A stretch of 60,524 nucleotides of DNA. Origin: Thermoleophilia bacterium. Its GTDB lineage: Bacteria > Actinomycetota > Thermoleophilia > Gaiellales > Gaiellaceae. Below the pieces are notes generated by a model. The model was not told where the DNA came from, did no database searches, and saw nothing but the letters and a program-made list of their open reading frames with translations. This document shows, one piece after another, positions 37,525 through 53,834 of the stretch; position 1 is the first letter of the stretch; the number at the start of each line of letters is the position of its first letter. The stretch covers positions 1 to 60,524 of the forward strand of contig SHVL01000008.1 in assembly GCA_009694305.1 (NCBI GenBank), given 5' to 3'. Both the position numbers and the translations under genes were made by a program.

Positions 37525-38907
37525 CTAGCCCCCGAGTTCGCCTGCGATGTCAACGAGTGCGTGTACATCGTCGTCGGTCGTGCGGAAATTGACAAAGCAG
37601 GGGCGGAGACAGACGCTGCCGTCGATCGTCGCCGGCGCCACCCAGACACGTCCGTCATCCTGGAGCGCACGCACGAGCCGGGAGTTGCCGGCGTTCAGGT
37701 CGCCCCCGGTGCCGAGATGGCGAAACGGGACGATCGAGAGCGGTGGCGGCCCACAGAGAGGTTCGAGGCGGTCGTGAGCAACGACGAGGCCGTGGAACAA
37801 GCGCGCCTGGCGGAGGTTCTCCTCGACCGCGTCACGAAAGGCCTGTGCCCCGTATGCCCGGAAGGAGAGCCAGAGCTTGAGCGCCCGGAACGGGCGCGAA
37901 TACTCGAGGGTGATATCGACCATATGACCCGTGCGCTCGTGCGGGATGTAGGCCTCCTCGTGCGAGAACGCCCGCACCAGGTCGTCGCGGTCGCGAACGA
38001 GGAGCACGCCGCACGCCTTCGGTAGATAGAGCCACTTGTGCGCGTCGAGCGTCACGGAGTCTGCGCGCTCGAGGCCGACAAACAGATGTCCTGCTGACGG
38101 GGTCGTTGCCGCAGGGAGGCCGTAGGCCCCGTCCACGTGCAGCCAGACACCGGCGGCAGCGCATACATCCGCCAGTGCGTCGATCGGGTCGCACGCCCCG
38201 GTCAGGGTCGTCCCCGCCGTCGCGACGACCGCCACGGGGGTTCGACCGACGGCCCGGTCGGCGCGGATCGCTTCCTCGACCGCCTCGGGGACGAGTCGCC
38301 GGTCGCTGTCGGTCGGGAGCGACCGCACGTTACCGGAGCCGATGCCGAGAATCTCGGCGGCTCGCTGGATCGAGTAGTGCGCCTCGTCCGAGCAGTAGAG
38401 GGTCGCGGCTGCAGTGCCGAGGCCGTGGCGGCGCGATCCGGGGATCGCCCGCTCTCGGGCCGCTGCGAGCGCCGTCATGTTCGACACCGTGCCTCCACTC
38501 GTGAAGGCACCTGCGCCGGCCGGAAAGCCGAGAAAGTCCGCGAGCCACCTGATTGCCTGATCCTCGATCTCGGTTGCCGCCGCCGCCCACACTGCCAGAT
38601 TCGCGTCGAAGCAGGCGGCGAGCAGATCTCCGAGCACGCCGACCTCGAGACCGGACGAGCCCACGAAGGCGAAGAAGCGAGGCCGTGGCTGGGCAATCGA
38701 CTCGTCCAGGGCGCGACGCGCATCGTCGAGAACCTCGAGCACGCCCGTCGGTGAATCGGGCAGTCCCGTCGCGAACAGCGCCCTCAGGTGGTCGTCGATC
38801 GGCGGCTGCTGAGGACGCGCCCGGTCGAAACTGGTCCAGGCCTCGGTCACGATCTCGGCCGCGCGCTGAAGCGCGAGCTCGCGTGGTACGTCGAGGCGGA
38901 GGCTCAC
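37525..38907 (-). CDS. PLP-dependent decarboxylase, aromatic-L-amino-acid-decarboxylase-like
   Basis: A 460-residue group II decarboxylase. GAFTSGGTVSNMTALAAARE near residue 130 binds the cofactor phosphate (TSGGT-SN), WLHVDGAYG holds the aspartate that pairs with the PLP nitrogen, and DAHKWLYLPKACG carries the Schiff-base lysine. The family makes amines such as tyramine, dopamine, tryptamine or phenethylamine. A GTG at 38907 overlaps the Rieske stop by 4 nt. It is the last gene of the 14-gene operon, so a role beside the amine-handling genes is likely; the substrate is unknown. Confidence 0.88.
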   Translation of the reverse strand: MSLRLDVPRELALQRAAEIVTEAWTSFDRARPQQPPIDDHLRALFATGLPDSPTGVLEVLDDARRALDESIAQPRPRFFAFVGSSGLEVGVLGDLLAACFDANLAVWAAAATEIEDQAIRWLADFLGFPAGAGAFTSGGTVSNMTALAAARERAIPGSRRHGLGTAAATLYCSDEAHYSIQRAAEILGIGSGNVRSLPTDSDRRLVPEAVEEAIRADRAVGRTPVAVVATAGTTLTGACDPIDALADVCAAAGVWLHVDGAYGLPAATTPSAGHLFVGLERADSVTLDAHKWLYLPKACGVLLVRDRDDLVRAFSHEEAYIPHERTGHMVDITLEYSRPFRALKLWLSFRAYGAQAFRDAVEENLRQARLFHGLVVAHDRLEPLCGPPPLSIVPFRHLGTGGDLNAGNSRLVRALQDDGRVWVAPATIDGSVCLRPCFVNFRTTDDDVHALVDIAGELGG

Positions 38908-39266
38908 GAGCGCAGCGTAGAGAGGTCTGCAACGACGCGGCGGTCGGTGGTCACCGAAGCCGTGACGACTGCGATCGGGTCGATGGCGGGGCCCTCGAGC
39001 GCGGAGCCGTCCACCAGGGAGAAGAGCGCACCGTGACACGCGCAACGAATGGCCTCTCCTTCGAGCCACCCGTCGCTCAGCGGACACTCGTCGTGGGTAC
39101 ACCAGGTCTCGAAGGCAACGTAGTTGTCTCCTGTTCTAGCAACAACGAGCGAGAGCCCTGCCGCCGTCGCCTCGCGCAGTTCACCGTCGGCAAGATCGGC
39201 AGGCCCGAGATCGACCGACGTGAGGCCGGTTCCCTCTCCGCCGGTGCTCTCGCTCTCCACGGGCAT
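38904..39266 (-). CDS. Rieske-type [2Fe-2S] ferredoxin
   Basis: A 120-residue ferredoxin. The cluster ligands are Cys56 and His58 (CTH) and Cys75 and His78 (CACH), with the 16-residue spacing normal for Rieske domains. The segment SDGWLEGEAIRCACHGALFSL closely resembles that of the Rieske domain fused to the P450 at 49825. It starts at ATG 39266, overlapping the P450 stop by one base. That close coupling, and the reductase just upstream, suggest it passes electrons to the P450, where most systems use a plant- or bacterial-type ferredoxin. Confidence 0.9.
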   Translation of the reverse strand: MPVESESTGGEGTGLTSVDLGPADLADGELREATAAGLSLVVARTGDNYVAFETWCTHDECPLSDGWLEGEAIRCACHGALFSLVDGSALEGPAIDPIAVVTASVTTDRRVVADLSTLRS

Positions 39267-40459
39267 CAGGCGTCCCACCGAACGTGCAGATGCTGCGGGG
39301 CACGAAACTCCCAGCCGCTGAAGACCGGTGGCCGCTCCGGGTCGGAGCGGAGGTGCGGGAGCCGCTCGAAGAGCCGTTGCACGGCGATGCGCATCTGCAC
39401 ACGGGAGAAATGATGACCCGAGCAGAAGTGGGGCCCGAACCCGAACGCTCCGTGATTGCGCTTCGGCCGAAAGAGGTCGTAGATATCGGCGGTCGGGCCC
39501 CACACGACCTCGTCGCGATTGACCGACGAGACGAGGACGCCGAGGTTCGCGCCAACGGGAAGCGTCGCTCCGCCAAGGTCTGTCTCGACCCGTACACGAC
39601 GGGTCTGCGTCCCGATCGGCGAGACCCAGCGCAGGCCCTCCTCGATCGCGTCACGTACGAGCCCTGCCGGGTCGGCCGCCATCGCCGCCGCGTGGCCCGA
39701 CTCGAGCAGTCCGGCCACCGTCGTCCCGGCGGCATGCCCGGGCTCCTGCATGCCGCCGAGCAACATCACCTTCAGGGTCGGCAGGATCGTCGCCACACGA
39801 TCCTCGAAGGAACCGTCTGCGTGTTGCAGCATCACCGCGATCGTGCTCGAGTCGGGCGTCTCCCAGAGCCGCTTCAGGACGGGCTCGAGGGAACGGTCTA
39901 CCTCCGCCCCGATCGCGTCCGAGACTGCCCACCTCGCGGGGTCGTCCTCGAAGTTGACCGCACCCTGCGCGAGACCGTAAAACCACCGTCGTAGGGTGTC
40001 TCCATCCATCTCACCGAGGCCGAGGACGCTCCCGAGCGAAAGCACCGACACGGGCTCGAAGTAGTCGCTCATCAGGTCGGCTGCGCCGCGTTCCACGATC
40101 CCGTCGAGCAGGCTCTCGACGATCGGAGTGACGATCTCCGGGGTGTTCTCCTCGACGAAGCGCGGCCTGAGCGACGGATCGAGCATCGCGCGAAGTCTCT
40201 TCTGCGGGTCACCGTCGAGCACGAGGATGCTCGGGCCTCCCATCGCCCGGTCGAGCGGCGAGGGCGTCACCGAGGAGTCGATCAGCTCGGGATGCGATGC
40301 CGCAAAGTCGGCTTCGGCCCAGCTCGTCACGAACCAGAGCCCGACAGCCGGGACGAAGCAGACGGGCGCCTCACGACGCATGCGCGCGTAGATCGGGTAG
40401 GGATCCTCGTCGAGTTGCTCGACGGTCACTGCGGCAGCCCATTCCTCGACGGCGCTCAT
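39266..40459 (-). CDS. Cytochrome P450
   Basis: A soluble bacterial P450 of 397 residues. The heme thiolate is Cys346 in FGFGPHFCSGHHF, the K-helix ExxR is in EEGLRWVSPIG, and the I-helix region reads GMQEPGHAAGTTVAGL, where the usual acid-Thr pair is altered (no Asp or Glu just before the Thr), so proton delivery may differ. It overlaps the reductase gene by 4 nt and the Rieske gene by 1 nt, giving a reductase-P450-ferredoxin set in consecutive genes. The substrate is unknown. Confidence 0.93.
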   Translation of the reverse strand: MSAVEEWAAAVTVEQLDEDPYPIYARMRREAPVCFVPAVGLWFVTSWAEADFAASHPELIDSSVTPSPLDRAMGGPSILVLDGDPQKRLRAMLDPSLRPRFVEENTPEIVTPIVESLLDGIVERGAADLMSDYFEPVSVLSLGSVLGLGEMDGDTLRRWFYGLAQGAVNFEDDPARWAVSDAIGAEVDRSLEPVLKRLWETPDSSTIAVMLQHADGSFEDRVATILPTLKVMLLGGMQEPGHAAGTTVAGLLESGHAAAMAADPAGLVRDAIEEGLRWVSPIGTQTRRVRVETDLGGATLPVGANLGVLVSSVNRDEVVWGPTADIYDLFRPKRNHGAFGFGPHFCSGHHFSRVQMRIAVQRLFERLPHLRSDPERPPVFSGWEFRAPQHLHVRWDA

Positions 40460-41568
40460 GCTGCTCCTTCCTGGACGATCGTCCGTGCCTCGCGCAGCCG
40501 CCGCGGCGCGTCTACGACGAGCACACAGACAGGCGCGCCGCCTCCGTCTCTCCCCACGTGCAAGCCGTCTTCCTCGACCCAGCTCTCAACGGCCCCCGCA
40601 AACCCGACCTCGGCCAGCCGCCGTGGGCCGATGTCGCTCCACCAGTACGGCAGGCGGTCGTAGAGCGCTGTGGTACCCGCGATCGCGTCGGCGACGTGCT
40701 CCCCGGTTCCGATCGCGGCGTCCCAGTGAGGAAAGCGCATCGGGCCAAAGCGCGTGTGCGGCACCAGGACGAGGTCGCCGCAGGCATACACCCGCTCGTG
40801 TCCCGGGACGAGCATGTCGTCGCCAACCGCGACGGGCAGCTCCGAGACCTCGAGCGAGAGACCCGGTGGCAGGAACGGAACGCCGCCGGTCGCGACAAGG
40901 ATCACGTCTGCTTCGAGCGTCCCGTGCGCGGCGGTTGCGAGCGAGTACCCGGTGGCGCTCTCGATCGCGACACCGCCGATGAACCGCACGCCGAGCTCGT
41001 CGAGCGTCGCCCGGCCGAGCTCCGGCAGAGGATCGTGCAGCCGGTCGAGAGGCCGGTCGAGCATGTCAACGAGCGTCACGGCATGGCCGGCCTGGGCAAG
41101 GGAGGCCGCGCTTTCGGTGCCGATCAGCCCTGCCCCGACGACGATCGCCTCCACGGGTCCGCTTGTCAGCAGAGGGCCGAGCGCATCGAAGACGTGGGGG
41201 TTGGCGTTGACGAAGGCGTCCTCGAGGCCGGGGACGGGTGGGGAGCGGTAGGCAAGGCCGGTGGCGAGCACCACGCTCTCTGCCTCGATCTCGATCTCTC
41301 CCTGCTCCGTCGTCACCGTCAGCATCCGGGCGGTGAGATCGGCGGAGAAGACCATGCCGTCGAGACGCTCGACGCCGCATCCGTCGAGACGTGCCGCGTC
41401 GGAGAGCAGGCGCGGCACTCCGTCGGAGAGCGCCGACTTCGTCAAGGGCGGCCGGTCGACGGGAAGACCCCGACCGATGAGGAGGGGCCGGATACCGTCC
41501 CGGGCGAGGCGCAGTGCACACGCGGTGCCGGCAACGCCGTTCCCGACAATCGCGACGTCGGCCTTCAT
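40456..41568 (-). CDS. FAD-dependent ferredoxin reductase-like oxidoreductase
   Basis: A 370-residue two-dinucleotide-binding flavoprotein. VAIVGNGVAGTACAL at the N-terminus binds FAD, VVGAGLIGTESAASLAQAG near residue 145 binds NAD(P)H, and VYACGDLVL near residue 270 is the second FAD motif. These match reductases that serve Rieske oxygenases and P450s. The ATG at 41568 overlaps the LLM gene stop by 4 nt, which decides it over a frame start at 41607. Likely role: NADH to Rieske ferredoxins. Confidence 0.9.
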   Translation of the reverse strand: MKADVAIVGNGVAGTACALRLARDGIRPLLIGRGLPVDRPPLTKSALSDGVPRLLSDAARLDGCGVERLDGMVFSADLTARMLTVTTEQGEIEIEAESVVLATGLAYRSPPVPGLEDAFVNANPHVFDALGPLLTSGPVEAIVVGAGLIGTESAASLAQAGHAVTLVDMLDRPLDRLHDPLPELGRATLDELGVRFIGGVAIESATGYSLATAAHGTLEADVILVATGGVPFLPPGLSLEVSELPVAVGDDMLVPGHERVYACGDLVLVPHTRFGPMRFPHWDAAIGTGEHVADAIAGTTALYDRLPYWWSDIGPRRLAEVGFAGAVESWVEEDGLHVGRDGGGAPVCVLVVDAPRRLREARTIVQEGAA

Positions 41569-42500
41569 GCCCCGGCCGCTCCGACCCGCTCCACCACCTC
41601 CCGGCACCAGGCCGGGTAGCGGGCGATCTCGTCGATGAACTGCGACGGCTTGATACAGAATGTCGTGAAACCTCGTGCTCGCTGGGCTGCCAGCGACGCG
41701 ACCGCCGGCTCGAGCGGGGACGGGCTGGAGTCGTCAGGGAAGACGGCACGCATCCCGCCGACGAGCTCGAGCTCCGAGAGGTCGCGGCCCTCTGCGGAGA
41801 GACCGTCACGAAGGAGCGTCAGATCGTCGTCCGACGGCTGACCGAGCGGATGGAACCCGTGCGCGTACCGCACGATCCGGCGCAACAACCGGTCGTGCAC
41901 CGACTCTCCGCCGAGCCAGAGGCGCGGCCCGTCGGGCCGCCAGGCCTTGGGCTCGAGGTACACGTCCTCGAACGAGTAGTGCTCACCGGCAAACGACGAG
42001 GGCGTGTCGCGCCAGAGCCCTTCCCAAGCGGCGAGATGCTCGTCGAGCAGAACGCCGCGCCTGTTGAACGGCACGCCGAGCGCCTCGTACTCGTCCCGAT
42101 GCCAACTGACGGTCGGCTGCACCACGAGCCGGCCCTCCGAGAGAAGGTCGAGCGTGCCGAGCTCGCGCGCGAGCAGGAGCGGGTGGCGCAGGGGCGCGAT
42201 CACCGCGCAGGCCGCGAGGCGCAGCCGCGACGTCGCAGCCGCGATCGCAGACAGCAGCACGAGCGAGCTCGGCCACGGCATGGCCGGGTCCTGGTTTCCC
42301 GGCATCGCATAGTCACGCGGGTTGCCCATTACTCCACCGGCACCGGCGCTCGGCCCGAGGACGATGTGCTCGCTCACCATGACGGCGTCGAACCCGGCAT
42401 CCTCGGCCACGACGGCCATCTCGACGAGGGCGCGAATGTCACGCGGCGGCGTCAGCGTCCAGTTCTCCGAGAGAACGAGGACGAGCTTCGACGCGCTCAC
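41565..42500 (-). CDS. LLM-class flavin-dependent oxidoreductase
   Basis: A 311-residue TIM-barrel enzyme of the luciferase-like group. AVVAEDAGFDAVMVSEHIVLG near residue 28, LRLAACAVIAPLRHPLLLARELGTLDLLSEGR (landmarks RHPLLLA and DLLSEGR) and LWLGGESVHDRLLRR are characteristic. The cofactor may be F420 or FMN; sequence alone does not decide. In this operon it could be a monooxygenase or an F420-dependent dehydrogenase. Its stop overlaps the reductase start by 4 nt. Confidence 0.88.
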   Translation of the reverse strand: MSASKLVLVLSENWTLTPPRDIRALVEMAVVAEDAGFDAVMVSEHIVLGPSAGAGGVMGNPRDYAMPGNQDPAMPWPSSLVLLSAIAAATSRLRLAACAVIAPLRHPLLLARELGTLDLLSEGRLVVQPTVSWHRDEYEALGVPFNRRGVLLDEHLAAWEGLWRDTPSSFAGEHYSFEDVYLEPKAWRPDGPRLWLGGESVHDRLLRRIVRYAHGFHPLGQPSDDDLTLLRDGLSAEGRDLSELELVGGMRAVFPDDSSPSPLEPAVASLAAQRARGFTTFCIKPSQFIDEIARYPAWCREVVERVGAAGA

Positions 42501-43618
42501 CGCAGAACGCCGGGTACGAGCTCCACAGCGGCGTCAACGGCAGTCTGCTGGTGCGGCTCGATCTCCTGGCCTGTGACATGGGCGAGGTACGAGAACGGGT
42601 CCTCGACGCCCGCCGAGAGACCCGACAACGCTTCGATCACGGCGAGGCCACAGAACGGGACGTGTCCCGCCGAGTAGCCACCCTCGTGGGAGGCGACGAG
42701 ACGGCCGCTGCAGAGCCGACCGGCGGCATCGAGCAGCCGTTCCGTCATCGTGCCGAAGGCCGCGGCCGGCAGCATCATCCGACCGAGGGGGTCGAGCGCA
42801 CCCGCATCGAAACCGCAGGCGATAACGATCAGCTCGGGCGCAAACGCATCGAGCGCGGGGAGGACGACGCGGTCGAGTGCCGCGAGATAGGCACCGGTTC
42901 CGCTCCCGGCCGGGAGCGGTACGTTGAGTGTCGCCCCCACGCCGGCCCCCACGCCTCTCTGGTCGAGCAGACCGGATCGCGCGGGGTAGAGGCCGTCCTG
43001 GTGCAACGAGATCGCGAGCACCGACGGGTCGTCCCAGAAGACGGCCTGCGTGCCGTTCCCGTGGTGGACGTCCCAGTCCACAACCGCGACCCGCCCCACT
43101 CCCCTCTCGGCCTGCGCGTGACGCACGCCGACCGCGACGTTCGCGAAGATGCAGAAGCCCATCCCGAGGTCGGGAAGCGCGTGATGACCGGGAGGACGGA
43201 CGAGCGCGTAGGCGTTCGCGACGGTGCCGTCGAGAACCGCGTCAATCGCCGTGATCGTGCCGCCGGCTGCGAGCTGGGCGATCTCGAAGGAGCCGTTCCC
43301 GAAGGGCGACTCGCTCCCCGCGTCGCCGCCGTGGCCCGCCGAGAGCTGCCGGATCTTTTCGATGTACGCCCCGGTGTGCACCCGTTGAAGCTCCGCGACA
43401 CTCGCAGGCCTCGGTGCAAGGAGGAAAAGCTGGTCGGTGAGCCCCGTCGCGTCGAGCAGGTTCTTGAACCGGCGCTTGGTCGCAGGATTCTCCGAGTGCT
43501 CCCCCGGCTCGAGCCACCCGCCGGCGGGCAGCTCCGATGCACCCGAGCCGGTGTCGTGCCACATCATTCGCTCGTGCCAGACGAGGCCGGTCTGGGGATC
43601 GTTGCCGCTCTTCACCAC
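42497..43618 (-). CDS. Class II histone-deacetylase-like amidohydrolase
   Basis: A 373-residue zinc amidohydrolase. RPPGHHA near residue 142, DWDVHHGNGTQ near 181 (zinc Asp and His) and ACGFDAGALDPLG near 268 (second zinc Asp) are intact, and EGGYS gives the transition-state Tyr. Bacterial members deacylate acetylpolyamines or other N-acyl compounds. Together with the glutamine-synthetase-like ligase this points to a substrate with an acylated amine. A GTG start at 43618 lies 10 nt after the aldehyde dehydrogenase stop. Confidence 0.92.
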   Translation of the reverse strand: MVKSGNDPQTGLVWHERMMWHDTGSGASELPAGGWLEPGEHSENPATKRRFKNLLDATGLTDQLFLLAPRPASVAELQRVHTGAYIEKIRQLSAGHGGDAGSESPFGNGSFEIAQLAAGGTITAIDAVLDGTVANAYALVRPPGHHALPDLGMGFCIFANVAVGVRHAQAERGVGRVAVVDWDVHHGNGTQAVFWDDPSVLAISLHQDGLYPARSGLLDQRGVGAGVGATLNVPLPAGSGTGAYLAALDRVVLPALDAFAPELIVIACGFDAGALDPLGRMMLPAAAFGTMTERLLDAAGRLCSGRLVASHEGGYSAGHVPFCGLAVIEALSGLSAGVEDPFSYLAHVTGQEIEPHQQTAVDAAVELVPGVLR

Positions 43619-43628: not shown

Positions 43629-45074
43629 TCATGTCGTCGTTCCGGTCGATATCTGCAGGGTCTTCAGGTCAGAATAGAAGTCGAGTGCAAAGTCGCCGCC
43701 CTCACGACCGATGCCCGAGATCCCGATCCCTCCGAACGGCGCAGTGAGATCTCGCACGAGAAAGGTGTTGACCCACACCGTCCCGGCGCGAATCGCCCTG
43801 CCGACGCGCTCGGCTCGGTCGGCAGAGCCGGTGTAGACGATCCCCGAGAGGCCGTAGGGCGTCGAGTTGGCCAGGGCGATGCCCTCGTCCTCTTCCGAAA
43901 AGATCTGGACCGTAAGAACAGGCCCGAACACCTCTCTCTGAACGATCTCGCTCTCGTTCGAGCGTGGGCTGACGAGGGTCGGCTCGTAGAACAGGCCGCC
44001 GCGTTCTGACGGATGACCGCCGCGGACGATCTCGTCGCCGTTACCCCGTGCCCGCTCGACGAAGGCCGCTACACGGTCGAGGTGGTCGCGGTGGATCAAC
44101 GGCGTCACGGTGGTGTCGTCGTCACGCGGGTCTCCGAGCACATGCTCGTCCGCGAAGCGGTGGAAGAGCTCGAGGAACGGCTCGACAACCGACTCCTGCA
44201 CGAGAATCCGCGTACCCGCGAGGCACACCTGGCCCGCGTCGTCGAACTGGCCCGCAGCCTTGCGGGCAGCGGCCTCGAGATCGCAGTCGGCAAAGACGAG
44301 CAGCGGCCCCTTACCCCCGAGCTCCCCCGTGAACGGGACGATGTTCGTCGCGGCGGCGACACCGATATGACGGGCCGTCTCGGGCGAGCCGGTGAACGAG
44401 ACCCGACGGACGCCCGGGTGGGAGACGAGTGCGGCCCCGATCTCCTCCCCGATCCCCTGAACGACGTTGAAGACGCCGGGGGGGAAGCCGGCCTCTGCGA
44501 CGAGGTCGGCGAGAAGCGAGCAGGAGAGGGGTGACCACTCGGCAGGCTTGAGAATCATGGTGGAGCCCGCGGCAAGCGCCGGAGCGGTCTTCCAGGTCGA
44601 GAGCATGAACGGGGCGTTCCACGGAGTGATCACGACCGCGGGCCCGCTCGGCATCCGGATCACCCTGTTCGCAGTGCCGTTCGACTCCCACACGCGCTCC
44701 TCGTAGGCCACCGCAAGGTCGGCGTAGCTGCGGTAGTTGCGCGCACCACGGTTGATCAGGCGGGCCTTCAGCGAGCGCAGCAGCATCGCCATGTCAACGC
44801 ACTCGACAGAGGCGAGTCGCTCGACGTTCGCGTCGATCAGGTCGGCGAGTCGGTGGAGGTAGACCGCACGACCGGCCGCACCGAGAGCGGCCCAGGCGGG
44901 AAACGCCTCCGTCGCCGCTGCCACAGCCAGGTCGGCCTCGCGCTGACCGCCACGCGCGATCTCACCGAGCGGCTGTTCGTCGATCGGGGAGACATCGGTG
45001 AACGTGTGCTCGCTCGCAACCCGTTCGCCACCGATGAAATGGTCGGGCGAGACCTCGACTCCCGCAACGTTCAC
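43629..45074 (-). CDS. Aldehyde dehydrogenase (NAD(P)+-dependent)
   Basis: A full-length 481-residue member of the ALDH superfamily. The catalytic Cys is in DDAGQVCLAGTRILVQ, the general-base Glu is in TGELGGKGPL, and ITPWNAPFMLSTWKTAPALAAG has the NAD-binding Asn. NTFLVRDLTAPFGGIGISGIGREGG is a typical end (landmark GGIGISGIGREGG). HpaE-type hydroxymuconic-semialdehyde dehydrogenases look like this, which would fit the ring-cleavage-type enzyme of the operon. It overlaps the SDR stop by 4 nt. Confidence 0.93.
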   Translation of the reverse strand: MNVAGVEVSPDHFIGGERVASEHTFTDVSPIDEQPLGEIARGGQREADLAVAAATEAFPAWAALGAAGRAVYLHRLADLIDANVERLASVECVDMAMLLRSLKARLINRGARNYRSYADLAVAYEERVWESNGTANRVIRMPSGPAVVITPWNAPFMLSTWKTAPALAAGSTMILKPAEWSPLSCSLLADLVAEAGFPPGVFNVVQGIGEEIGAALVSHPGVRRVSFTGSPETARHIGVAAATNIVPFTGELGGKGPLLVFADCDLEAAARKAAGQFDDAGQVCLAGTRILVQESVVEPFLELFHRFADEHVLGDPRDDDTTVTPLIHRDHLDRVAAFVERARGNGDEIVRGGHPSERGGLFYEPTLVSPRSNESEIVQREVFGPVLTVQIFSEEDEGIALANSTPYGLSGIVYTGSADRAERVGRAIRAGTVWVNTFLVRDLTAPFGGIGISGIGREGGDFALDFYSDLKTLQISTGTTT

Positions 45075-45844
45075 GGCATCCTCCCGAACGCAAGCGTGCC
45101 GACGTCAACCGCCGTGACACCGCCGTCAACGGCGATCACGGAGCCGTTGACGTAGGACGCGTCGTCGGAGAGGAGCCAGGCAACAGCACCGGCGATCTCC
45201 TCGGGCATGCTTGCCCGGCGCAGCGGCACGTCGGCGGTCACCTCGGCATACGCCTCCTCCCGCGAGCCGCGGCCGAGCGCATCCATCTCGCCGTCGGCCA
45301 TGGGCGTGTGCACCCAGCCAGGACAGAGGCAGTTCGCCCGCACGCCCACCGGCCCGTGATCGACCGCAATGCACCGGGTCAACATCATGAGAGCCGCCTT
45401 GGACGAGCAGTAGGCGAGGCTCGAAGCCGTCGCACGCATCGCCGAGACGGATGCGATGCTGACGATGGCTCCGCGCACGTCGATCAGATACGGGATCGCA
45501 GCACGCGCGACGAGAAAGGCGCCGGTCACGTTCGTCGCGAACACCTGCTCGAAGACGGCGGGGTCGAGGTCGAGCAACGATCCCTCACCCCCTCGACCGG
45601 CGTTGAGGACGAGCGCATCCAGGGAGCCGTAGCGGGCGACGGTCTCGGCAACAGCCCGGTCGGCGTCGGCGACGACGCCCGTGTCGGCGACGATCGCAAG
45701 ACCGCCGATCGAACGCGCAACCTCGTCGATCGGTGCCGCTCTTCGTCCGGTGACGGCGACCATGTAGCCGTCTGCAGCGAGGCGTCGGGCGACTGCCGCA
45801 CCGATCCCCGTCCCACCTCCGGTAACGAGGGCGACCCCGGTCAC
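45071..45844 (-). CDS. Short-chain dehydrogenase/reductase
   Basis: A classical SDR of 257 residues. VTGGGTGIGAAVARRL is the nucleotide loop (TGxxxGIG), LVLNAGRGG is the NAG motif, and the Ser-Tyr-Lys triad is in SIASVSAMRATASSLAYCSSKAAL (landmark YCSSK). CPGWVHTPM and SDDASYVNGSVIAVDGG complete the fold. A GTG at 45844 overlaps the previous stop by 4 nt. It probably oxidises or reduces a pathway alcohol or dihydrodiol; the direction is unknown. Confidence 0.92.
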   Translation of the reverse strand: MTGVALVTGGGTGIGAAVARRLAADGYMVAVTGRRAAPIDEVARSIGGLAIVADTGVVADADRAVAETVARYGSLDALVLNAGRGGEGSLLDLDPAVFEQVFATNVTGAFLVARAAIPYLIDVRGAIVSIASVSAMRATASSLAYCSSKAALMMLTRCIAVDHGPVGVRANCLCPGWVHTPMADGEMDALGRGSREEAYAEVTADVPLRRASMPEEIAGAVAWLLSDDASYVNGSVIAVDGGVTAVDVGTLAFGRMP

Positions 45845-46644
45845 GCGCGCAAGTCCTTGACGATCTCCTGGTCGTCCACGGTGTAGCCAAAGGTGAACCT
45901 GAAGCCCTTGCCGACCCGAACCGGAGCGAGCAGATCGTGCTCCTCGTGCGCCGCGCCAAACAGGTCGAGCGTGGCGCTCCCCTCCCACACCGGCGAGACG
46001 ACGCGGCTGCGACTCCGGGAACGGGCAAGCTCGTGCACCGCCGGGTCGTCGTGCCGTCCGGCCTCGAGCCGGGGAAAGTGACGGACGTTGACGATCGGCG
46101 GGTCGTTGTGTGTCGGCCCGGCCTCGGAGAGCCGCTCGAGCGTGACGGTCGCCTCCGCGACACGACGCTCGTAGGCCGCGCAGGTGCCGCCGAACGTCGC
46201 CCCGGCCTTCACACCCGGGTCAGCCGGACTCTCGAGCCCGAAGGTGCGGGTGATCCAGATCGAGCCGAGCTTCTTCGGAAAGCCCTGCAGCCACCCACGC
46301 GTGAGCGCGAAGTCGCGATCGACCCAGATGAACGGGCAGGTCGTCACCTCCTCGCCGTCGAGCAGCGCGTTGACGACGAGGAACACCTCCTTGTACTGCG
46401 AACGCGAGGGGTCGAGTAGTTCACCGCCACTCTCCGAGCACGACTGCCAGTCGGCGAACACCGCAGCGCAACGTCCGGCGTCGGGGTGTGGGTCGAGGCC
46501 CGCGGGCAGGCATGACACCGCCTTCTCGGGGTCGGCCCAGTACTCGACGACGAGGAAGTCTCCGACGTAGTGCCACGGCGGGTAGGGGACGATCGAGGCG
46601 CGACCACCCGGGGAGCGAGGGATGGTGAATCCGGTCAGCGGCAC
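45841..46644 (-). CDS. Acetoacetate-decarboxylase-family protein
   Basis: A protein of 267 residues. PYPPWHYVGDFLVVEYWADPEKA at the N-terminus (landmark PWHYVG) and GWLQGFPKKLGSIWITR, with the lysines where the Schiff-base Lys of acetoacetate decarboxylase lies, place it in PF06314. Family members also work as aldolase-dehydratases on pyruvate, so decarboxylation is not assured. The GTG at 46644 overlaps the upstream TAG by one base. A role in processing a ring-cleavage or keto-acid product is inferred. Confidence 0.82.
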   Translation of the reverse strand: MPLTGFTIPRSPGGRASIVPYPPWHYVGDFLVVEYWADPEKAVSCLPAGLDPHPDAGRCAAVFADWQSCSESGGELLDPSRSQYKEVFLVVNALLDGEEVTTCPFIWVDRDFALTRGWLQGFPKKLGSIWITRTFGLESPADPGVKAGATFGGTCAAYERRVAEATVTLERLSEAGPTHNDPPIVNVRHFPRLEAGRHDDPAVHELARSRSRSRVVSPVWEGSATLDLFGAAHEEHDLLAPVRVGKGFRFTFGYTVDDQEIVKDLRA

Positions 46645-47558
46645 TATGCGGTCGCCTCCGGAAGGGTGTGGCCGCGCGTCTCGAGGCTCTCCGCCTCGGA
46701 CGCGATCGCTGCCGCGTCGAACCGGAAGTAGGAGCGTGGCGGCAGCGGGCCCCACGTGTTCGACGAGTACCGGTCGTCCGGCCAGAGCCGTGGCTCGTGG
46801 TCTGCCTGAAGCTGTTCCATGTCGCAGTACAGCTCGACGAAGCACTCCTCCTCGACGATCCTCACATAGCTCGCGATATTGCCTCCCACTCCGTGCCGCG
46901 CCGGCCCCCAGCCGAGCCAGCGACCGTGCCGCGCGAGGTGGTCGAGCATGTCACGCATCTGGCCCACGTCCACCGTGTCGAATGCGAGATGGTGGAAGTG
47001 ACCCGGCGTCATGTCGATCAGCGCCATTACGTGATGGTCGGTGTTGATCCGGAACCAGATCCCGGCCTCACCCAGACGATCGGAAACCGTCATCCCCAGA
47101 ACCTCGGTGTAGAACCTGATCGACTCCTCGAAGTGGGAGCTGAGGCAGTTGACGTGCCCGAGCTTCCGTGGCGACCCCGGCCGAACGGTCGTCGAGCGGC
47201 GGGCGTGGACGACCCAGAGCTCCTGGCGGCGATACGGCATGACCTGCACGCCCCGTCCATCGGGATCGACGAGGAAGATGCTCCCTTCCAGCTCCTGCCA
47301 GTGGATGTCGAGCGATCGCAGGTGGGCCCGAACGTCATCGAGAGAGCAGTCATGGGCCAGTTCGAAGCCGGTGTGCTCGTGGCCCGGAGAGCCGGGTACG
47401 AGCTCGAGGCTGTAGGGCTCGTCGTCACATGAGAGGAGAGCGCGCGCGCCGTCACGCCCCCGGTCGTGCAGGCCGAACTCGACCGCCCAGCGTGCTGCTG
47501 CCTCGTCTACGTCGGCGACCCCGAGGCAGACATGGTCGATGCGCCGCAGGTCGATCAC
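46644..47558 (-). CDS. VOC-superfamily extradiol-dioxygenase-like protein
   Basis: A two-domain vicinal-oxygen-chelate protein of 304 residues. The N-terminal half (IDHVCLGVADVDEAAARW) is the non-catalytic module. The C-terminal half has the metal triad of type I extradiol dioxygenases: His in KLGHVNCLS, His in FHHLAFDTVD and Glu in CFVELYCDMEQ. It would cleave a catechol-type ring next to the hydroxyl groups. It overlaps the FAA hydrolase stop by 4 nt, a common pairing in meta-cleavage pathways. Confidence 0.85.
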   Translation of the reverse strand: MIDLRRIDHVCLGVADVDEAAARWAVEFGLHDRGRDGARALLSCDDEPYSLELVPGSPGHEHTGFELAHDCSLDDVRAHLRSLDIHWQELEGSIFLVDPDGRGVQVMPYRRQELWVVHARRSTTVRPGSPRKLGHVNCLSSHFEESIRFYTEVLGMTVSDRLGEAGIWFRINTDHHVMALIDMTPGHFHHLAFDTVDVGQMRDMLDHLARHGRWLGWGPARHGVGGNIASYVRIVEEECFVELYCDMEQLQADHEPRLWPDDRYSSNTWGPLPPRSYFRFDAAAIASEAESLETRGHTLPEATA

Positions 47559-48433
47559 GGGTTGCCACCGTCGGCGACCAGGCGTTCCGCCTCGTCCTCG
47601 GGGATCGCCAGCGCCACGTGGAGCGTCTGGGCCGAGACCTGCATCTGCTCACCGGGCCCGGCGAGATCGACATCCCACTCCTCGATCGTGTTCCTCAGCC
47701 GTCCGATCCCGGAGATCTCGACCTCGACGACGTCTCCCGGCTTCATCGGCCGCGAGTTCGCGGGTGTCCCGGTGAGGATGACGTCTCCCGGCTCGAGCGT
47801 GATCAGCCTGCATACGTCTGCGAGCTGATAGGCGACGGAGAAGAGGAGATCGTCGGCGGTCGCCTCCTGCACCACCTCTCCATTGAGAGAGGTGCGCAGG
47901 GTGAAGTCGGTCGGGTCGAACTCCGCCGCAGGCACGAGCTCGGGGCCGAGCGGGAGGAAGCCGTCGTGGCCCTTGACCCGCAACATGGCCCCGCGGTCGG
48001 CGTGACGGAAGTCGTGCATGCCAACGTCGTTCGCGCAGGTGTAGCCACCCACGTAGTCGAGCACCTCGTCGATCGGCACGCCCTTCATCCGTCGCGCGAT
48101 GACGACAGCAAGCTCACCCTCGTAGTTGAGGAACTGCGCACCGCGCGCCATCAGAATCGGTTGGCGATGGCCGTTCAACGTGGTCGGCGGCTTCATGAAG
48201 TAGGAGGGCTCGGGTGGTGTGCGGGCGGCGTATTCACGCACGCGGCTGCCGTAGGTGAGATGCACGGCGAGGATTTTCGACGGCGCAGCCGGTGCGAGAT
48301 AGACGGCGGACGTCTCGGCAATCACGAGCCCGTCCGCAAGGACGATCTCGTCGCCGGCGCGGCGCCCCCACCGCGCTTCACCGTCCACCTCGACGCAGAC
48401 ACAGCGAACTTCCGGGTTACAGATGGGAGGCAT
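47555..48433 (-). CDS. Fumarylacetoacetate hydrolase family protein (HpaG/YcgM-like)
   Basis: A 292-residue protein. YFMKPPTTLNGH near residue 80, the metal-binding ELAVVIARRMKGVP, YTCANDVGMHDFR and VILTGTPANSRPMKPGDVVEVEI (landmark TGTPA) are FAA-family motifs. Members hydrate, decarboxylate or hydrolyse ring-cleavage products. It starts at ATG 48433 inside the end of the glutamine-synthetase-like gene (17-nt overlap), so these two are coupled. Confidence 0.92.
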   Translation of the reverse strand: MPPICNPEVRCVCVEVDGEARWGRRAGDEIVLADGLVIAETSAVYLAPAAPSKILAVHLTYGSRVREYAARTPPEPSYFMKPPTTLNGHRQPILMARGAQFLNYEGELAVVIARRMKGVPIDEVLDYVGGYTCANDVGMHDFRHADRGAMLRVKGHDGFLPLGPELVPAAEFDPTDFTLRTSLNGEVVQEATADDLLFSVAYQLADVCRLITLEPGDVILTGTPANSRPMKPGDVVEVEISGIGRLRNTIEEWDVDLAGPGEQMQVSAQTLHVALAIPEDEAERLVADGGNP

Positions 48434-49805
48434 ATTCCTCGATCTCCCATCGGGTCACGAACACGACGTCGAACTCTTCGACCTCCTCCGTGAAACGCTC
48501 CACCTCGAACCGCTTCATCGCGACAAACGTGTGGACGAGATGCTTGCCGAGCAGCCCGGTGAGCACCGTGTCTGCCTCGAGGGCGTCGAGGGCCGCACCG
48601 AGGTCGGAGGGTAGGGCCGAGCCTGCATGGGCCTCGTCCATCCGGTAGGCGTCGCCGACGACCGGGTCCGGTGGCGTGAGCCCGCGTTCGATGCCGTCGA
48701 GGCCGGCGAGCAGAATGGCGGCGATCATCAGATGCGGGCACGCCGCACCGTCGGCGACGCGCACCTCGACGCGGGCACGGGAACCTCGCTCATTCGGAAC
48801 GCGACAGAGGGCCGTTCGATTGTCATGTCCCCAGTTCGCGTGCGTCGGTGCGAGGCTGTCCGGCAGGAGCCTCTTGTAGGCGTTGACCGTGGGACCGAGG
48901 ATCGCCTGGAGCCCCTGTGCGTGGTCGATCACACCGGCGATGAAGCTCGCTGCGAGCGGACTCGGGCCCGCCGCACCCTGCGCATCGGGCCCACCCTCGT
49001 CGGCGAAGGCGTTCCGGCCGCTGCTGTCGTTGAACGAGAGGTGCACGTGGAAGCCGGAGCCGCCCTGGTCGGAAAACGGACGGCCCATGAACGTGGCGAG
49101 CATCCCCTCACGGACAGCGATCTCCTTCACGGCCGCCTTCAGCATGAATGCGCGATCCGCTGCGTCGAGCGCACCGGAATGCCTGAGGTTGATCTCGTAC
49201 TGCGAGTTCATGAACTCGTGGTTCGCGGCGAACGCCTCCAGGCCGAGCTCGTCGCACCAGAGCAGCATCCGGAGGACGATCTCGCGCGGGTCCGAGACTG
49301 CCCCCACCGTGTAGACGCGGGAAAGCTCGTCCACGTAGCGGCGAATGCCGTTCGGGGCCTCGAGGTCGCGCTCGGCCAGGAAGAACTCGAGCTCGGGCGC
49401 CACGATCGGCTCGAGACCGCGAGCAGCGTATGCGTCTACGACACGCTGCAACAATGCCCTCGGGCAGGACGGGAAGTGGTCTGCCCCGTCGAGCGTCCAC
49501 GCCTCGCCGAGGCACCACGCGACCTCTGGCTGCCAGGGGACGGGTCGCAACGTGCCGAGGTCGGGCCGGACCGCAAGGTCAACGTAGCCCTCCTCGCCGC
49601 CGACGACCGGGGTGTGCCGGAGATCGGTGCCCATCACCGCGGCGCAGAACGAGACGCCTTCCTCGCACATACCGGCGAAATGCCTGACCGGGATGTCCTT
49701 GCCACGGGCAACCCCGTGCAGATCGGTGTACAGCAGCCTGACGGCGCGCACCCCGAGGCCGCTCATCGTCCTCATGGCCGCCTCGGCCTCCTGGTGCAGG
49801 CTCAT
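48417..49805 (-). CDS. Glutamine-synthetase-family ligase (gamma-glutamyl-amine synthetase-like)
   Basis: A 462-residue member of the GS superfamily. Metal and ATP site features are kept: PELEFFL, NHEFMNSQYEINL, GFHVHLSFND, NRTALCRVP and RVEVRVADGAACPHL. The operon setting (permease, oxygenases, HDAC-like amidohydrolase) argues against nitrogen assimilation and for gamma-glutamylation of an amine, as PuuA, IpuC or the aniline enzymes do. ATG 49805 has AAGGAGG 7 nt before it, the best ribosome site in the operon. Confidence 0.85.
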   Translation of the reverse strand: MSLHQEAEAAMRTMSGLGVRAVRLLYTDLHGVARGKDIPVRHFAGMCEEGVSFCAAVMGTDLRHTPVVGGEEGYVDLAVRPDLGTLRPVPWQPEVAWCLGEAWTLDGADHFPSCPRALLQRVVDAYAARGLEPIVAPELEFFLAERDLEAPNGIRRYVDELSRVYTVGAVSDPREIVLRMLLWCDELGLEAFAANHEFMNSQYEINLRHSGALDAADRAFMLKAAVKEIAVREGMLATFMGRPFSDQGGSGFHVHLSFNDSSGRNAFADEGGPDAQGAAGPSPLAASFIAGVIDHAQGLQAILGPTVNAYKRLLPDSLAPTHANWGHDNRTALCRVPNERGSRARVEVRVADGAACPHLMIAAILLAGLDGIERGLTPPDPVVGDAYRMDEAHAGSALPSDLGAALDALEADTVLTGLLGKHLVHTFVAMKRFEVERFTEEVEEFDVVFVTRWEIEEYASHL

Positions 49806-49824
49806 GCTCGCACCTCCTTGCCGG

Positions 49825-51486
49825 TCAGGATCGCACCCGCACGGGCAGGCGCTTGATGCCGTTGAAGAAGTTCGAGCGCAGGCGCGTCGGCGTTCCCGCA
49901 AGCTCGATCCGGTCGAGATACGGAACCATCTCCTCGAGCCAGATCTTCACCTCCAGCTTCGCGAGGTGCGCTCCGAGACAGAAATGCGGCCCGCCGAGGC
50001 CGAAGGTGAGATGCCGGTTCGGCTGTCGTCCGAGGTCGAGCCGATGTGGATCGGCAAACTTCTCCTCGTCGTAGTTGCCCGCGGCGTACCACATCGTCAC
50101 CTTATCGCCGGCCTTTATCGACCGGCCGTGAACCGTGATATCGCGCGTCGCAGTGCGCCTGAAGTGATGCACGGGATGCGCCCGCCGGAGAATCTCGTCG
50201 GCGGCGGTTCCGGCAAGTGAGGGGTCGGCGATCAGTCGCGCAGCCTCGTCGGGGTGGGCGAGAAGATCGAGGAGACCAAGGCTGATCGTGTGCCTCGTCG
50301 TCTCGTTCCCGGCAGCGGTGAGCAGGATGAAGAACAGCCCGAACTCCTCCTCCGAGAGGCGGGAGCCGTCGATCTCGGCTTCGACGAGATGCGTGGTGAT
50401 GTCGTCGCGCGGGTCGAGGCGCCGGGCTGCACCGAGGCGACAGCCATACTCGATCAACTCCGGTGCGAACGGGCTCGAGAACGGCAGCAGGCGGTTCGCC
50501 GGGTCGTTCGAGGTCAGCTCCAGCACGTTCTGTTCTCCGACGACCTCCGGGTCGGTGTTGCCGAGCAGCTTGTCGCCGAGCTCGATCAACAGACGCCTGT
50601 CCTCGATCGGTAGCCCCATGATCTCCGAGAACACCCACATCGGGATCTCCGCTGCAACATCCTCGACCCAGTCGAAGGCGTCTCGCTCGAACGCCTCCGC
50701 GAGGATGCCGCCGGCGAGGCCCCGGATGCGCTCCTCGTAGCTGTTGACGATGCGCGGGGTGAAGCCCTTGTTGACGAGGTCACGGAGTCGCGTCTGCGCA
50801 GGCGGGTCGGTGTCGATCATCGACCTCCGTGCCAGGATCTCTTCGGGTGCGAGGTCTTCGAGAGATGTCCCGCCGGTCTCTGAGGAGTATGTCTCCCACT
50901 CCTTCGACACCTGCACGATGTCGTCGTAGCGCGTGAAGACCCAGAAGCCACGGCCGTCGGCCTCGGGCTGCCAGTGGAGCGGGGCCTCACGCCGGAGCAG
51001 CGTCAGCCACTCGTGGGGGACTCCCTGCTCCCACACGGCGAGGTCGGTCAGGTCGATCTCGGCGAGGACGGGGCCGTCCACCGCGGGTGCAAAGGTTGTC
51101 GCCGCTTCGGCAGCGGCCTGCGGAATGTGTACCTCCTGCTCGTGCACCGCCTCTGCAGCAGCGGGTGGTGGGCCGAGCCGCACCTGAAGCTCACCCCCCT
51201 CGACACGCGCCTCGAAGATCGGAAGTGGCTCGAACGCAGGCGGACAGAGGACATCTCCCGTGCGCAGGTCGAACTCCGAACCGTGACAGGGACAGACAAT
51301 CACACCACTGTCGAGCTCACCGTCGGAGAGCGAGCAGTCCTCGTGGGTGCAGGTGTCCTGAAATGCGACCCATCCTTCGGCCGTCCGACCGAGGCAGACG
51401 GCCATACCGCCGACCTCGGCGAGGCGGAGGAAGCCCACGTGGGCTTCCTCCGCCTCGCCGATGCCGAACCAGACAAGTTCGGTCAC
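49825..51486 (-). CDS. Rieske [2Fe-2S]-cytochrome P450 fusion
   Basis: One frame of 553 residues with two redox domains. Residues 1-105 are a Rieske ferredoxin: Cys46 and His48 (CTH), Cys65 and His68 (CPCH). An Ala/Pro-rich linker (about 106-145) leads to a complete P450: I-helix AAGNETTRH, K-helix ExxR in EILRRAHPVHHFRR, heme Cys503 in FGLGGPHFCLGAHLAK. Known P450 fusions carry other partners, so an N-terminal Rieske module is unusual. The linker would let the ferredoxin deliver electrons to the heme directly. A 46-bp palindrome covers codons 9-24. No ribosome site is obvious; the permease stop is 11 nt upstream. Confidence 0.92.
   Translation of the reverse strand: MTELVWFGIGEAEEAHVGFLRLAEVGGMAVCLGRTAEGWVAFQDTCTHEDCSLSDGELDSGVIVCPCHGSEFDLRTGDVLCPPAFEPLPIFEARVEGGELQVRLGPPPAAAEAVHEQEVHIPQAAAEAATTFAPAVDGPVLAEIDLTDLAVWEQGVPHEWLTLLRREAPLHWQPEADGRGFWVFTRYDDIVQVSKEWETYSSETGGTSLEDLAPEEILARRSMIDTDPPAQTRLRDLVNKGFTPRIVNSYEERIRGLAGGILAEAFERDAFDWVEDVAAEIPMWVFSEIMGLPIEDRRLLIELGDKLLGNTDPEVVGEQNVLELTSNDPANRLLPFSSPFAPELIEYGCRLGAARRLDPRDDITTHLVEAEIDGSRLSEEEFGLFFILLTAAGNETTRHTISLGLLDLLAHPDEAARLIADPSLAGTAADEILRRAHPVHHFRRTATRDITVHGRSIKAGDKVTMWYAAGNYDEEKFADPHRLDLGRQPNRHLTFGLGGPHFCLGAHLAKLEVKIWLEEMVPYLDRIELAGTPTRLRSNFFNGIKRLPVRVRS
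51416..51461. repeat. 46-bp perfect palindrome inside the Rieske-P450 gene
   Basis: Bases 51416-51438 and 51439-51461 are exact inverse complements with no spacer; the centre reads AAGCCCAC/GTGGGCTT. It encodes residues 9-24 of the fusion protein. In RNA it would form a near 23-bp stem close to the start codon. It may regulate translation of the oxygenase, bind a dimeric protein, or be a fold-back assembly error. Confidence 0.92.
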
Positions 51487-51497: not shown

Positions 51498-53066
51498 CTA
51501 GAGCGGCGTCGTGTCGCCCGCCGACTCGAACGCGAGCGTCTCGTCGAGCGGTGCAACGCCACGATGCTCGGCGGCGTGGGCCGCGGCATTGTCCAGGCTG
51601 TCGCGACGCATGACCATGACGATCAGGAACCAGATGAGGGTCAGGACGAGCAACCCGATCGTCCAGGCCGCCGCGACCCAGTTGAAGTTGGAGTGGTCAT
51701 GAGGTTGCGGGTTGAGAGCCCCGTAGAACCCGAGGATCGGCGTTGCCACGGCGACCGCCACGATCAGGTACTGCCACCACTTGTTCCCGCTCGCGCGTAC
51801 GAGACGGAATGCGGCAATCGCGAGGACGAGGTAGACGATCTCGATCGCAAACGAGCCGATCGTCGCAGCGAGGATGAACGTCGCGAACTGGTCGTTCGGG
51901 AAGAACGGGATGAACTTGCCGGCCTCGTCCATGAACCCGAACTGCGCCGCGTAGTCCGTGGCGAACACGAGCAGCGTGAGGCCGATGCCGCCGACGGCGA
52001 CCATCAGGTTCCCGACCCACGGCGTGTCACGGCGCGATGTCTTCGCAAAGAACGCCGGAAGGAGTCCGTCACGTCCGAGTGCGAAGAAGCCGCGGCCGAT
52101 CATCACGCAGATCGCCAGAGCAAGCGCCATCGCGTCGAGAATGACGACGATCTCGAGGAGGGTGGCAAACCACGATCCGACGTACAGCGTCGCCATCTCG
52201 CCCACCGGCCCGGGGGAGAAGGCCCACAGGCCTTCGCTGACGGCCGTCTGGCCGTACCCGATCGAAAATGCATAGGACATGAGAACGAAGAAGCCTGCGG
52301 CCACGGCGACCGTGCCGATCAGCGCCCGCGGAATGGAGCGGTGCGGGTCGGCCGATTCCTCGCCGATCGAGGCGGCCGCCTCGAAGCCGACAAAGAGGAG
52401 GATCCCGAGCAGGATCCCGCCGAGAACGCCGCCTCCCGTGATCCCGAACAGCGAGGTCTCGCCGGGGTTGAACATCGACAGGGTGTTACCTTCCTTGCCG
52501 CCCTTGGCGATGATCACGACGGCAAGAATCAGCATCGGGATGAACGAGACAACCGCGAATGTCAGCATCGCGCGAATCGCAAGGCGCACGCCGAAGTAGT
52601 TGAGGGCGAGGACGATCGCGAGCGCGATCATGCCCCATATCCACCAGGCGGGTCCGCTGTCGGAGACGTGGGCCACCCAGAAGTTGTCGATCAAAACACT
52701 GAGCCCTAGGTAGATACCACCACCGCCGAGGAAGAGTGAGCCGACGAAGAAGAAGCCTGCAGTGAAGACACCTATCCACGGATGTGCGCCGTGCGTCAGG
52801 TACTCGTAGACCGCGCCGGCCCCCGCATACTTCCGCGCATAGAGCGAGATCGTGTACGCGATCGCGAGCACGCCGATGCCCGCAAGCAGCACTGCGAGCG
52901 TGGCATTCCAGCCGGCACCGATGTCAGGCCGAGAGACTCCGCCGAGAATGAGCGCGACCGAGAACATGGGGCCGATCGCGAGCGCCTGCGCGACGGCGTG
53001 CATCGTCGTAAGGTTCTTCTTGCCGAGCGCGCCGGTCGTGGCATCGCCCTCCGAGGCCTGGCTCAT
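51498..53066 (-). CDS. APC-superfamily amino acid/amine permease
   Basis: A 522-residue permease with about 12-14 membrane helices. The N-terminal KKNLTTMHAVAQALAIGPMFSVALILGG and the GFEAAASIGEESADPHRSIPRALIGTV stretch (landmarks GFEAAASIGEE and HRSIPRA) are signatures of the amino acid-polyamine-organocation group. It is the first gene of the catabolic operon and likely brings in the substrate. The ATG at 53066 has GGAGG 8 nt upstream, which excludes the longer frame to 53144. Confidence 0.93.
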   Translation of the reverse strand: MSQASEGDATTGALGKKNLTTMHAVAQALAIGPMFSVALILGGVSRPDIGAGWNATLAVLLAGIGVLAIAYTISLYARKYAGAGAVYEYLTHGAHPWIGVFTAGFFFVGSLFLGGGGIYLGLSVLIDNFWVAHVSDSGPAWWIWGMIALAIVLALNYFGVRLAIRAMLTFAVVSFIPMLILAVVIIAKGGKEGNTLSMFNPGETSLFGITGGGVLGGILLGILLFVGFEAAASIGEESADPHRSIPRALIGTVAVAAGFFVLMSYAFSIGYGQTAVSEGLWAFSPGPVGEMATLYVGSWFATLLEIVVILDAMALALAICVMIGRGFFALGRDGLLPAFFAKTSRRDTPWVGNLMVAVGGIGLTLLVFATDYAAQFGFMDEAGKFIPFFPNDQFATFILAATIGSFAIEIVYLVLAIAAFRLVRASGNKWWQYLIVAVAVATPILGFYGALNPQPHDHSNFNWVAAAWTIGLLVLTLIWFLIVMVMRRDSLDNAAAHAAEHRGVAPLDETLAFESAGDTTPL

Positions 53067-53105
53067 ACGATCAACCTCCCGTGTAGGTCGGACGCTCGTG
53101 CCCAC

Positions 53106-53154
53106 TTGCGTCCTGGTTGCCGAGACGATATAACAATCGAACATCGAATGTCAA
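53106..53154. promoter_or_regulatory. Overlapping divergent promoters with a putative GntR operator
   Basis: Rightward: TTGCGT (53106-53111), 17 nt, TATAAC (53129-53134), for gntR. Leftward: TTGACA (53154-53149), 18 nt, TATCGT (53130-53125), for the catabolic operon; its transcript would have a leader of about 50 nt with a ribosome site. The inverted repeat ACAT-CGA-ATGT (53141-53151) overlaps the leftward -35 region and the gntR start codon, so a bound GntR dimer could block both directions. Confidence 0.6.
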
Positions 53155-53834
53155 CTATCCGTCATTCCGATCTCGACCCCCACCCGGCGCAGCCGCTGCG
53201 TGTCCGCTCGGTCGTCGGACTCGCCTACGACGAGATCCGGTCGCTGATCGTTGCGGGCACCCTGGAGCCGGGCTCGCGCCTCGCGCAAGGCGCGCTCGCT
53301 GATCGTCTCGGGATCTCGCGCGGCTCCGTGCGCGAGGCACTCCTGCGGCTCGAAGGCGATGGTCTCGTCGCCTTCGAGGTCAACCGTGGCTTCTTCGTCG
53401 CGGAGGCGGAGCTCGACGACGTGCGGCAACGGCTGGAGGCGCGGCTCGCGCTCGAGCCGGAGATCGCGCGACTTGCCGCTGCCCGCTGCAACGACGCGGA
53501 TCTGCAGCTGATGCGTGAGTCGATCGCCGCCGAGGCTTCTGCGACGACCTCCGACGAGGTGCACGACGCGAGCCGGGCGTTCCACTTCGCGGTGGCGCAG
53601 GCGACCGGCAACAACGCTTTCTCAAGGCTGCTCGAGGGACTCTGGATCGCCGACGTCGGCCGCCGGCTCCTCGCGCAGCGACGCCGCTCGGAGGAGTGGC
53701 AGGATCACGACGTCGAGGAGCACCAGGCCATTCTCGAAGCGTTCGAGGCGGGCGACGCCGACCGCGCCGCAGAGCTGATGCGCGAGCATGTCGAGAGCGC
53801 CTTCCTGCACTGGTCGCCGCACCCCGACCCGTAG
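53148..53834 (+). CDS. GntR-family transcriptional regulator (FadR/FCD subfamily)
   Basis: A 228-residue regulator. The winged helix (about residues 18-85) has LAYDEIRSLIVAGTLEPGSRL, ALADRLGISRGSVREALLRLEGDGLV (landmark SRGSVREAL), and NRGFFVAE. The C-terminal FCD ligand domain is all-helical, with His in RAFHFAVAQATGN and HQAILEAFEAGD as likely metal or ligand contacts. It faces away from the 14-gene operon and most likely represses it until a pathway compound binds. The ATG lies inside the putative operator. Confidence 0.92.
   Translation: MSTIRHSDLDPHPAQPLRVRSVVGLAYDEIRSLIVAGTLEPGSRLAQGALADRLGISRGSVREALLRLEGDGLVAFEVNRGFFVAEAELDDVRQRLEARLALEPEIARLAAARCNDADLQLMRESIAAEASATTSDEVHDASRAFHFAVAQATGNNAFSRLLEGLWIADVGRRLLAQRRRSEEWQDHDVEEHQAILEAFEAGDADRAAELMREHVESAFLHWSPHPDP

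Follow-up and report, generated by a model that had tools for sequence, protein, structure and literature searches.

A Rieske ferredoxin domain fused to a CYP125/CYP124-like cytochrome P450 in a Gaiella-like genus of Thermoleophilia

What does a Rieske [2Fe-2S] domain do at the head of a cytochrome P450 chain, and is the joint protein real? Both questions are raised by one open reading frame in the window, by which we mean the whole stretch of 60,524 nucleotides of Thermoleophilia bacterium DNA that was analysed (assembly GCA_009694305.1, contig SHVL01000008.1). We read the protein, with a probability of about 0.75, as a P450 that has its own tethered electron carrier, is served by a separate reductase and was fused from an adjacent gene pair. 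The features on which this reading draws are collected in Table 1.

Two intact domains in one reading frame

The initial annotation had placed an intact Rieske protein and an intact P450 in a single frame of 553 residues, and we confirmed this architecture on the minus strand; a plus-strand reading of 49825-51486 was ruled out by stops in frame. A putative AGGA stretch resembling a ribosome-binding site lies just 5' of the GTG start. Pfam found only two domains in the chain, Rieske (residues 6-91 matched, E = 1.5e-15) and p450 (E = 2.3e-20). The residues named in the initial annotation proved correct, namely the cluster ligands Cys46, His48, Cys65 and His68 (CxH...CxxH), the GxET stretch of the I-helix (A392-G-N-E-T396), the ExxR motif (E431-x-x-R434) and the heme ligand Cys503 in the loop FGLGGPHFCLG, and all of them were invariant in the five full-length fusions. 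The AlphaFold2 model of the fusion had a mean pLDDT of 88.2 and a pTM of 0.86, with both domains confident and a weaker linker at about residues 110-120. When modelled alone, the Rieske domain reached a pLDDT of 94.2, and its top Foldseek matches were the ferredoxins CarAc, NDO, TDO and BphF. The P450 domain superimposed on CYP125MRCA with Z = 51.3 and an rmsd of 2.0 over 394 aligned residues (52% identity), and this half is CYP125/CYP124-like, these being the nearest solved P450s in both sequence and fold.

By its ligand motif, PF00355 match and fold the N-terminal part is therefore a Rieske [2Fe-2S] protein, and by its heme cysteine loop, ExxR motif and [A/G]Gx[E/D]T I-helix the remainder is a cytochrome P450; with both domains in one conserved frame, the chain is a natural ferredoxin-P450 fusion. 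Self-sufficient P450s such as CYP102 and CYP116B carry a flavin reductase domain in the chain. The fusion has no flavin domain and so is not self-sufficient. Reductase, ferredoxin and P450 genes are all present, and the layout may be that of a class I (three-component) system, in which electrons would run from the reductase through the ferredoxin to the heme.

Table 1. Coordinates of the fusion, its domains, the neighbouring genes and two related loci
Feature	Position	Strand	Remarks
Divergent GntR/FCD regulator	53154..53834	plus	
Amino-acid/amine permease (APC)	51498..53144	minus	11 nt upstream of fusion
Rieske-P450 fusion ORF	49825..51486	minus	553 aa; GTG start 51486-51484, stop 49827-49825
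N-terminal Rieske [2Fe-2S] domain	51175..51486	minus	about residues 1-104; Pfam PF00355, predicted fold
Linker	51070..51174	minus	residues 105-139; low pLDDT around 110-120; mostly higher dN than domains
P450 domain, CYP125/CYP124-like	49828..51069	minus	about residues 140-553; Pfam, motifs, fold
Glutamine-synthetase-like (gamma-glutamyl-amide synthetase-like)	48417..49811	minus	13 nt downstream of fusion
Fumarylacetoacetate-hydrolase family, HpaG-like	47555..48433	minus	
VOC extradiol dioxygenase, weakly HpaD/catechol 2,3-dioxygenase-like	46644..47558	minus	
Acetoacetate-decarboxylase-fold (MppR-like) protein	45841..46845	minus	ORF start probably too far upstream
SDR dehydrogenase	45071..45988	minus	
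Aldehyde dehydrogenase, HpaE/hydroxymuconic-semialdehyde-dehydrogenase-like	43629..45074	minus	
Histone-deacetylase-family amidohydrolase	42497..43618	minus	
Luciferase-like (F420-type) oxidoreductase	41565..42500	minus	
Pyridine-nucleotide ferredoxin-reductase-like flavoprotein	40456..41607	minus	candidate donor
Second P450 (P450b)	39266..40459	minus	4-nt overlap with reductase gene
Stand-alone Rieske ferredoxin	38904..39251	minus	shares the cysteine pair of the fusion; 14 nt downstream of P450b
PLP-dependent decarboxylase	37525..38910	minus	
CxxHxxC Fer4_15-type ferredoxin/reductase locus, G744	L134:13015-13422	minus	
CxxHxxC Fer4_15-type ferredoxin/reductase locus, G577	L133:4407-5423	plus	

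Rieske ferredoxins beside P450s and the likely electron path

Twelve Rieske matches above 130 bits were found across the class, half of them fused and half stand-alone ferredoxins, and all six of the latter lay beside a P450 or one glutamine-synthetase gene away from one. The pairing recurs in the class in a thirteenth case (G692, 101 bits), where a Rieske with the cysteine pair CTHAAC...CNCH abuts a P450b-like gene (L149:287-1920, minus). Stand-alone Rieske ferredoxins of the same subfamily were seen in orthologous or related P450 clusters of families elsewhere in the order and class (G037, G043, G046, G735 and G692). In G577 and G744 the place of the Rieske in the orthologous cluster is taken by a CxxHxxC Fer4_15-type ferredoxin accompanied by a reductase, an apparent swap of one electron carrier for another, as though a conventional P450 ferredoxin had given way to a Rieske protein. 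Together, the fusion, the tight Rieske-P450 pair, the run of reductase, P450 and Rieske genes and this swap point, from gene content and order, to Rieske ferredoxins as habitual partners of P450s in these actinobacteria. A paralogous set in the genome of the window itself (contig C16; L058:7623-10293, minus), comprises a glutamine-synthetase-like gene and a stand-alone P450 that shares about 50% identity with the fused P450; no Rieske motif was seen there in 17 kb of sequence.

The genes for the reductase, P450b and the stand-alone Rieske are tightly spaced in the window, and their order is identical in G001. G006 keeps the reductase (68%) beside the decarboxylase and lacks P450b and its ferredoxin, which leaves the fusion as the P450 of that cluster. 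G005 has no homologue of the reductase, and the G003 gene (L056:16094-16845, plus) is missing about 112 central codons and has a frame change, so that it looks broken, either as a pseudogene or through an assembly error. The product of the gene that the initial annotation had taken for the donor (given there as 40456-41568) is therefore a good candidate in the window, but it cannot be the sole donor in the genus, and another reductase would have to act in G005 and G003. As a separate observation, the I-helix of P450b reads GGMQEPGH in place of the usual [A/G]Gx[E/D]T, with the usual Thr missing, and P450b is possibly an unusual oxygen-activating P450.

Gene context and the history of the fusion (see below) suggest that the heme most likely receives its electrons from the Rieske domain, which would itself be supplied by a separate reductase. 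For the direction of electron flow, the reductase partner and the docking we infer the following sequence. The N-terminal [2Fe-2S] cluster would be reduced by an NAD(P)H:ferredoxin reductase on a chain of its own, in the window most likely the 40456-41607 product; the Rieske domain would then visit the proximal face of the P450 on its linker of about 35 residues and pass electrons singly to the heme, and the reduced heme would hydroxylate a substrate.

This scheme has to be weighed against the cysteines of the Rieske domain, since Cys51 and Cys67 occupy the disulphide positions of high-potential Rieske proteins. According to a published alignment, such cysteines make up the disulphide in respiratory Rieske proteins of high potential, and low-potential oxygenase-type Rieske ferredoxins lack them (PMC2946596). 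The pair (CTHxxC and CxCH boxes) was invariant in the fused copies and in the P450-associated stand-alone Rieskes. The same genomes also encode Rieske oxygenases and CPRH-type (suf-type) Rieskes, and these lack it. At the sequence level the fused domain thus has the cysteine pair of the high-potential bc1/b6f proteins, and it departs from the low-potential dioxygenase-type ferredoxins, which have no disulphide cysteines. In bc1/b6f proteins a Ser and a Tyr make hydrogen bonds to the cluster. Ser70, after the second box, was kept in all five full-length fusions, and Phe72 stands where bc1 proteins have the Tyr by which their potential is raised. High Rieske potentials are about +150 to +300 mV. 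If such a potential held here, reduction of the P450 heme would be uphill, and the disulphide, if formed, could make the donor too positive for simple heme reduction.

The Rieske domain could then have a disulphide and a positive potential and not be the main donor, serving instead to tune, sense or drain electrons, whether as a redox gate, as an electron sink or as a donor of the second electron only, to the ferrous-oxy heme, with another ferredoxin giving the first. The conserved pair of the fused and P450-associated Rieskes, a mark of high-potential proteins elsewhere, argues for such a role, as does the retention of Ser70. We nevertheless consider it improbable, because the potential-raising Tyr is replaced by Phe, dioxygenase ferredoxins come closest to the domain in fold and overall sequence, a disulphide may fail to form in the cytoplasm, and both the overlapping gene pair of G735 and the CxxHxxC ferredoxin swap point to an ordinary donor. 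The broader proposal that this is the first natural Rieske-P450 fusion and that it uses a Rieske of the disulphide kind, potentially of high potential, to drive or gate P450 catalysis is a tentative one, with the odds against it; if true, a P450 would receive electrons from a donor whose potential lies beyond the accepted range, or a thiol-disulphide switch would sit beside the cluster.

A Rieske domain that donates to its own heme was also compared with one that serves another oxygenase in trans, for instance a ring-hydroxylating one, the fusion merely co-localising the two. The best PDB matches of the domain in sequence and fold are indeed dioxygenase ferredoxins, and Rieske oxygenases occur in most genomes of the genus searched, but this explanation is very improbable. 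G003 (largest contig 3.28 Mb) keeps the fusion as the only P450 match in the genome and gave no match to PF00848 (Ring_hydroxyl_A), so that the Rieske domain there has no such ring-hydroxylating oxygenase to serve. No oxygenase alpha subunit was present among the clustered genes examined in the window, and the Rieske subfamily accompanies P450s.

Distribution and origin of the fusion

The same domain order, which the initial annotation had suggested looking for in other genomes, was found in a single Gaiella-like genus. Four other species carry full-length fusions (86, 78, 76 and 72% identity), one such further copy sitting inside a 3.28-Mb contig, and the G004 copy is divided by two contig ends into residues 57-551 (71%) and residues 3-98 (61%). 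The seventh genome of the genus (G002, about 80% complete) has neither the fusion nor the adjacent glutamine-synthetase orthologue. With synonymous sites well diverged, dN/dS ranged from 0.14 to 0.28 for the Rieske segment and from 0.09 to 0.31 for the P450 segment, and both domains are under purifying selection. The chance that a sequencing or translation error merged two genes into one frame is negligible: G735 has the related genes as two overlapping frames, so that one indel could mimic a fusion, but the four other full-length genes, with the linker aligned and from separately deposited assemblies, and the fifth copy split at contig ends exclude chance and assembly error unless one error is common to all assemblies.

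Outside the genus, no full-length fusion was found among 129 genomes of the order, in a 399-genome sample of the class, in a 396-genome sample of the phylum or by a pattern scan for close relatives in about 85,000 species genomes. In the class and the phylum only the best three candidates per genome were scored against the fusion, and Rieske domains joined to P450s of unrelated families would escape these scans. The 72,556 plasmid records gave P450 matches only and no fusion, and the sole record with more than 80% coverage starts at residue 88, without the Rieske ligands. Stand-alone orthologues of the fused P450 are common in Actinomycetota.

Phylogenetic analysis of the P450s placed the six fused copies in a single clade (100/100) amid stand-alone P450s, so that one fusion event suffices. 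The Rieske tree likewise recovered the fused copies as a single clade (98/97), distinct from the Rieskes of the oxygenase, suf and bc types; this tree was built without the G735 Rieske and does not settle how the fused clade branches relative to the cluster ferredoxins. An un-fused pair exists in G735, a member of the same class from another order and family, in which separate Rieske and P450 genes follow each other with an ATGA overlap (L131:9070-10628, plus), in the order of the domains of the fusion. Among stand-alone P450s, the one in G735 scored highest in the class search (58% identity), and the G735 Rieske was the closest stand-alone Rieske compared, with 46.9% identity to the domain in the window and 52-54% to three other fused domains. 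This overlapping pair probably represents the forerunner state. Adjacent, overlapping Rieske and P450 genes would have become one frame in the ancestor of the genus, by a route that may have needed a single frame change and growth of the linker.

Known P450 systems and the surrounding operon

The idea that Rieske-to-P450 transfer is an undescribed route, put forward in the initial annotation, is out of date, since in 2026 the Rieske ferredoxin SpFdx4 of Streptomyces peucetius proved in vitro to be a native partner of the P450 DoxA, which shows transfer between separate proteins (PMC12979805). The SpFdx4/SpFdR3/DoxA system resembles the fusion in that a Cys2His2 Rieske-type [2Fe-2S] ferredoxin donates to a P450 and the reductase is separate (PMC12979805); it differs in that ferredoxin and P450 are separate proteins and DoxA is a biosynthetic P450. 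SpFdx4 was likened to BphA3 and to the toluene dioxygenase ferredoxin (PMC12979805), and in our alignments the latter and CarAc were without the Cys51/Cys67 pair. The literature searched, which covered few subscription journals, contained no natural Rieske-P450 fusion, and it is the fusion itself, not the transfer, that looks new.

Natural ferredoxin-P450 fusions include CYP51-Fdx of Methylococcus and others and the N-terminal CxxHxxC ferredoxin-CYP proteins of mercury-methylating bacteria (PMC9868604). CYP51-Fdx likewise holds ferredoxin and P450 in one chain and still needs a separate reductase, but the ferredoxins of these two groups are of the 3Fe-4S/CxxHxxC kind and the one described here is a Rieske [2Fe-2S] protein. 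The 3Fe-4S ferredoxin of CYP51-Fdx is moreover C-terminal, whereas the Rieske domain is N-terminal. The PFOR arrangement of CYP116B (P450RhF) also has a [2Fe-2S] domain fused to a P450, but its cluster is plant-type and all-Cys and an FMN reductase is part of the chain. CYP125MRCA and the mycobacterial CYP125 and CYP124, to which the fused P450 is closest, are un-fused and oxidise sterols or branched lipids, whereas the operon here suggests amine catabolism; CYP125 kinship by itself does not make the fused P450 a sterol oxidase. The dioxygenase ferredoxins CarAc, BphF, TDO and NDO resemble the N-terminal domain in fold and overall sequence but serve non-heme oxygenases. With the fusion, the Rieske domain joins the known fusion partners of P450s, at a time when the Rieske-to-P450 route has only recently been proven, for one streptomycete P450. 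As a covalent pair it is a tractable object for the study of Rieske-to-heme transfer, its disulphide cysteines make the donor potential directly testable, and it is a possible engineering module.

The glutamine-synthetase-like gene adjoins the fusion in all six genomes that carry one. Together with the permease, the extradiol dioxygenase, the HpaE- and HpaG-like, MppR-like and histone-deacetylase-family proteins, the PLP-dependent decarboxylase and the GntR regulator, it leads us to the speculative suggestion that the operon may break down an amine or an amino acid, which could be aromatic, by a route with a meta-cleavage branch. The literature searched held nothing specific on a cluster of glutamine synthetase, P450 and extradiol dioxygenase. 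Elsewhere in the window, a Fer2-domain gene (31541-31993, minus) lies beside a large open reading frame (29292-31544), and this locus looks like an ordinary molybdenum hydroxylase cluster of the CO/xanthine dehydrogenase family.
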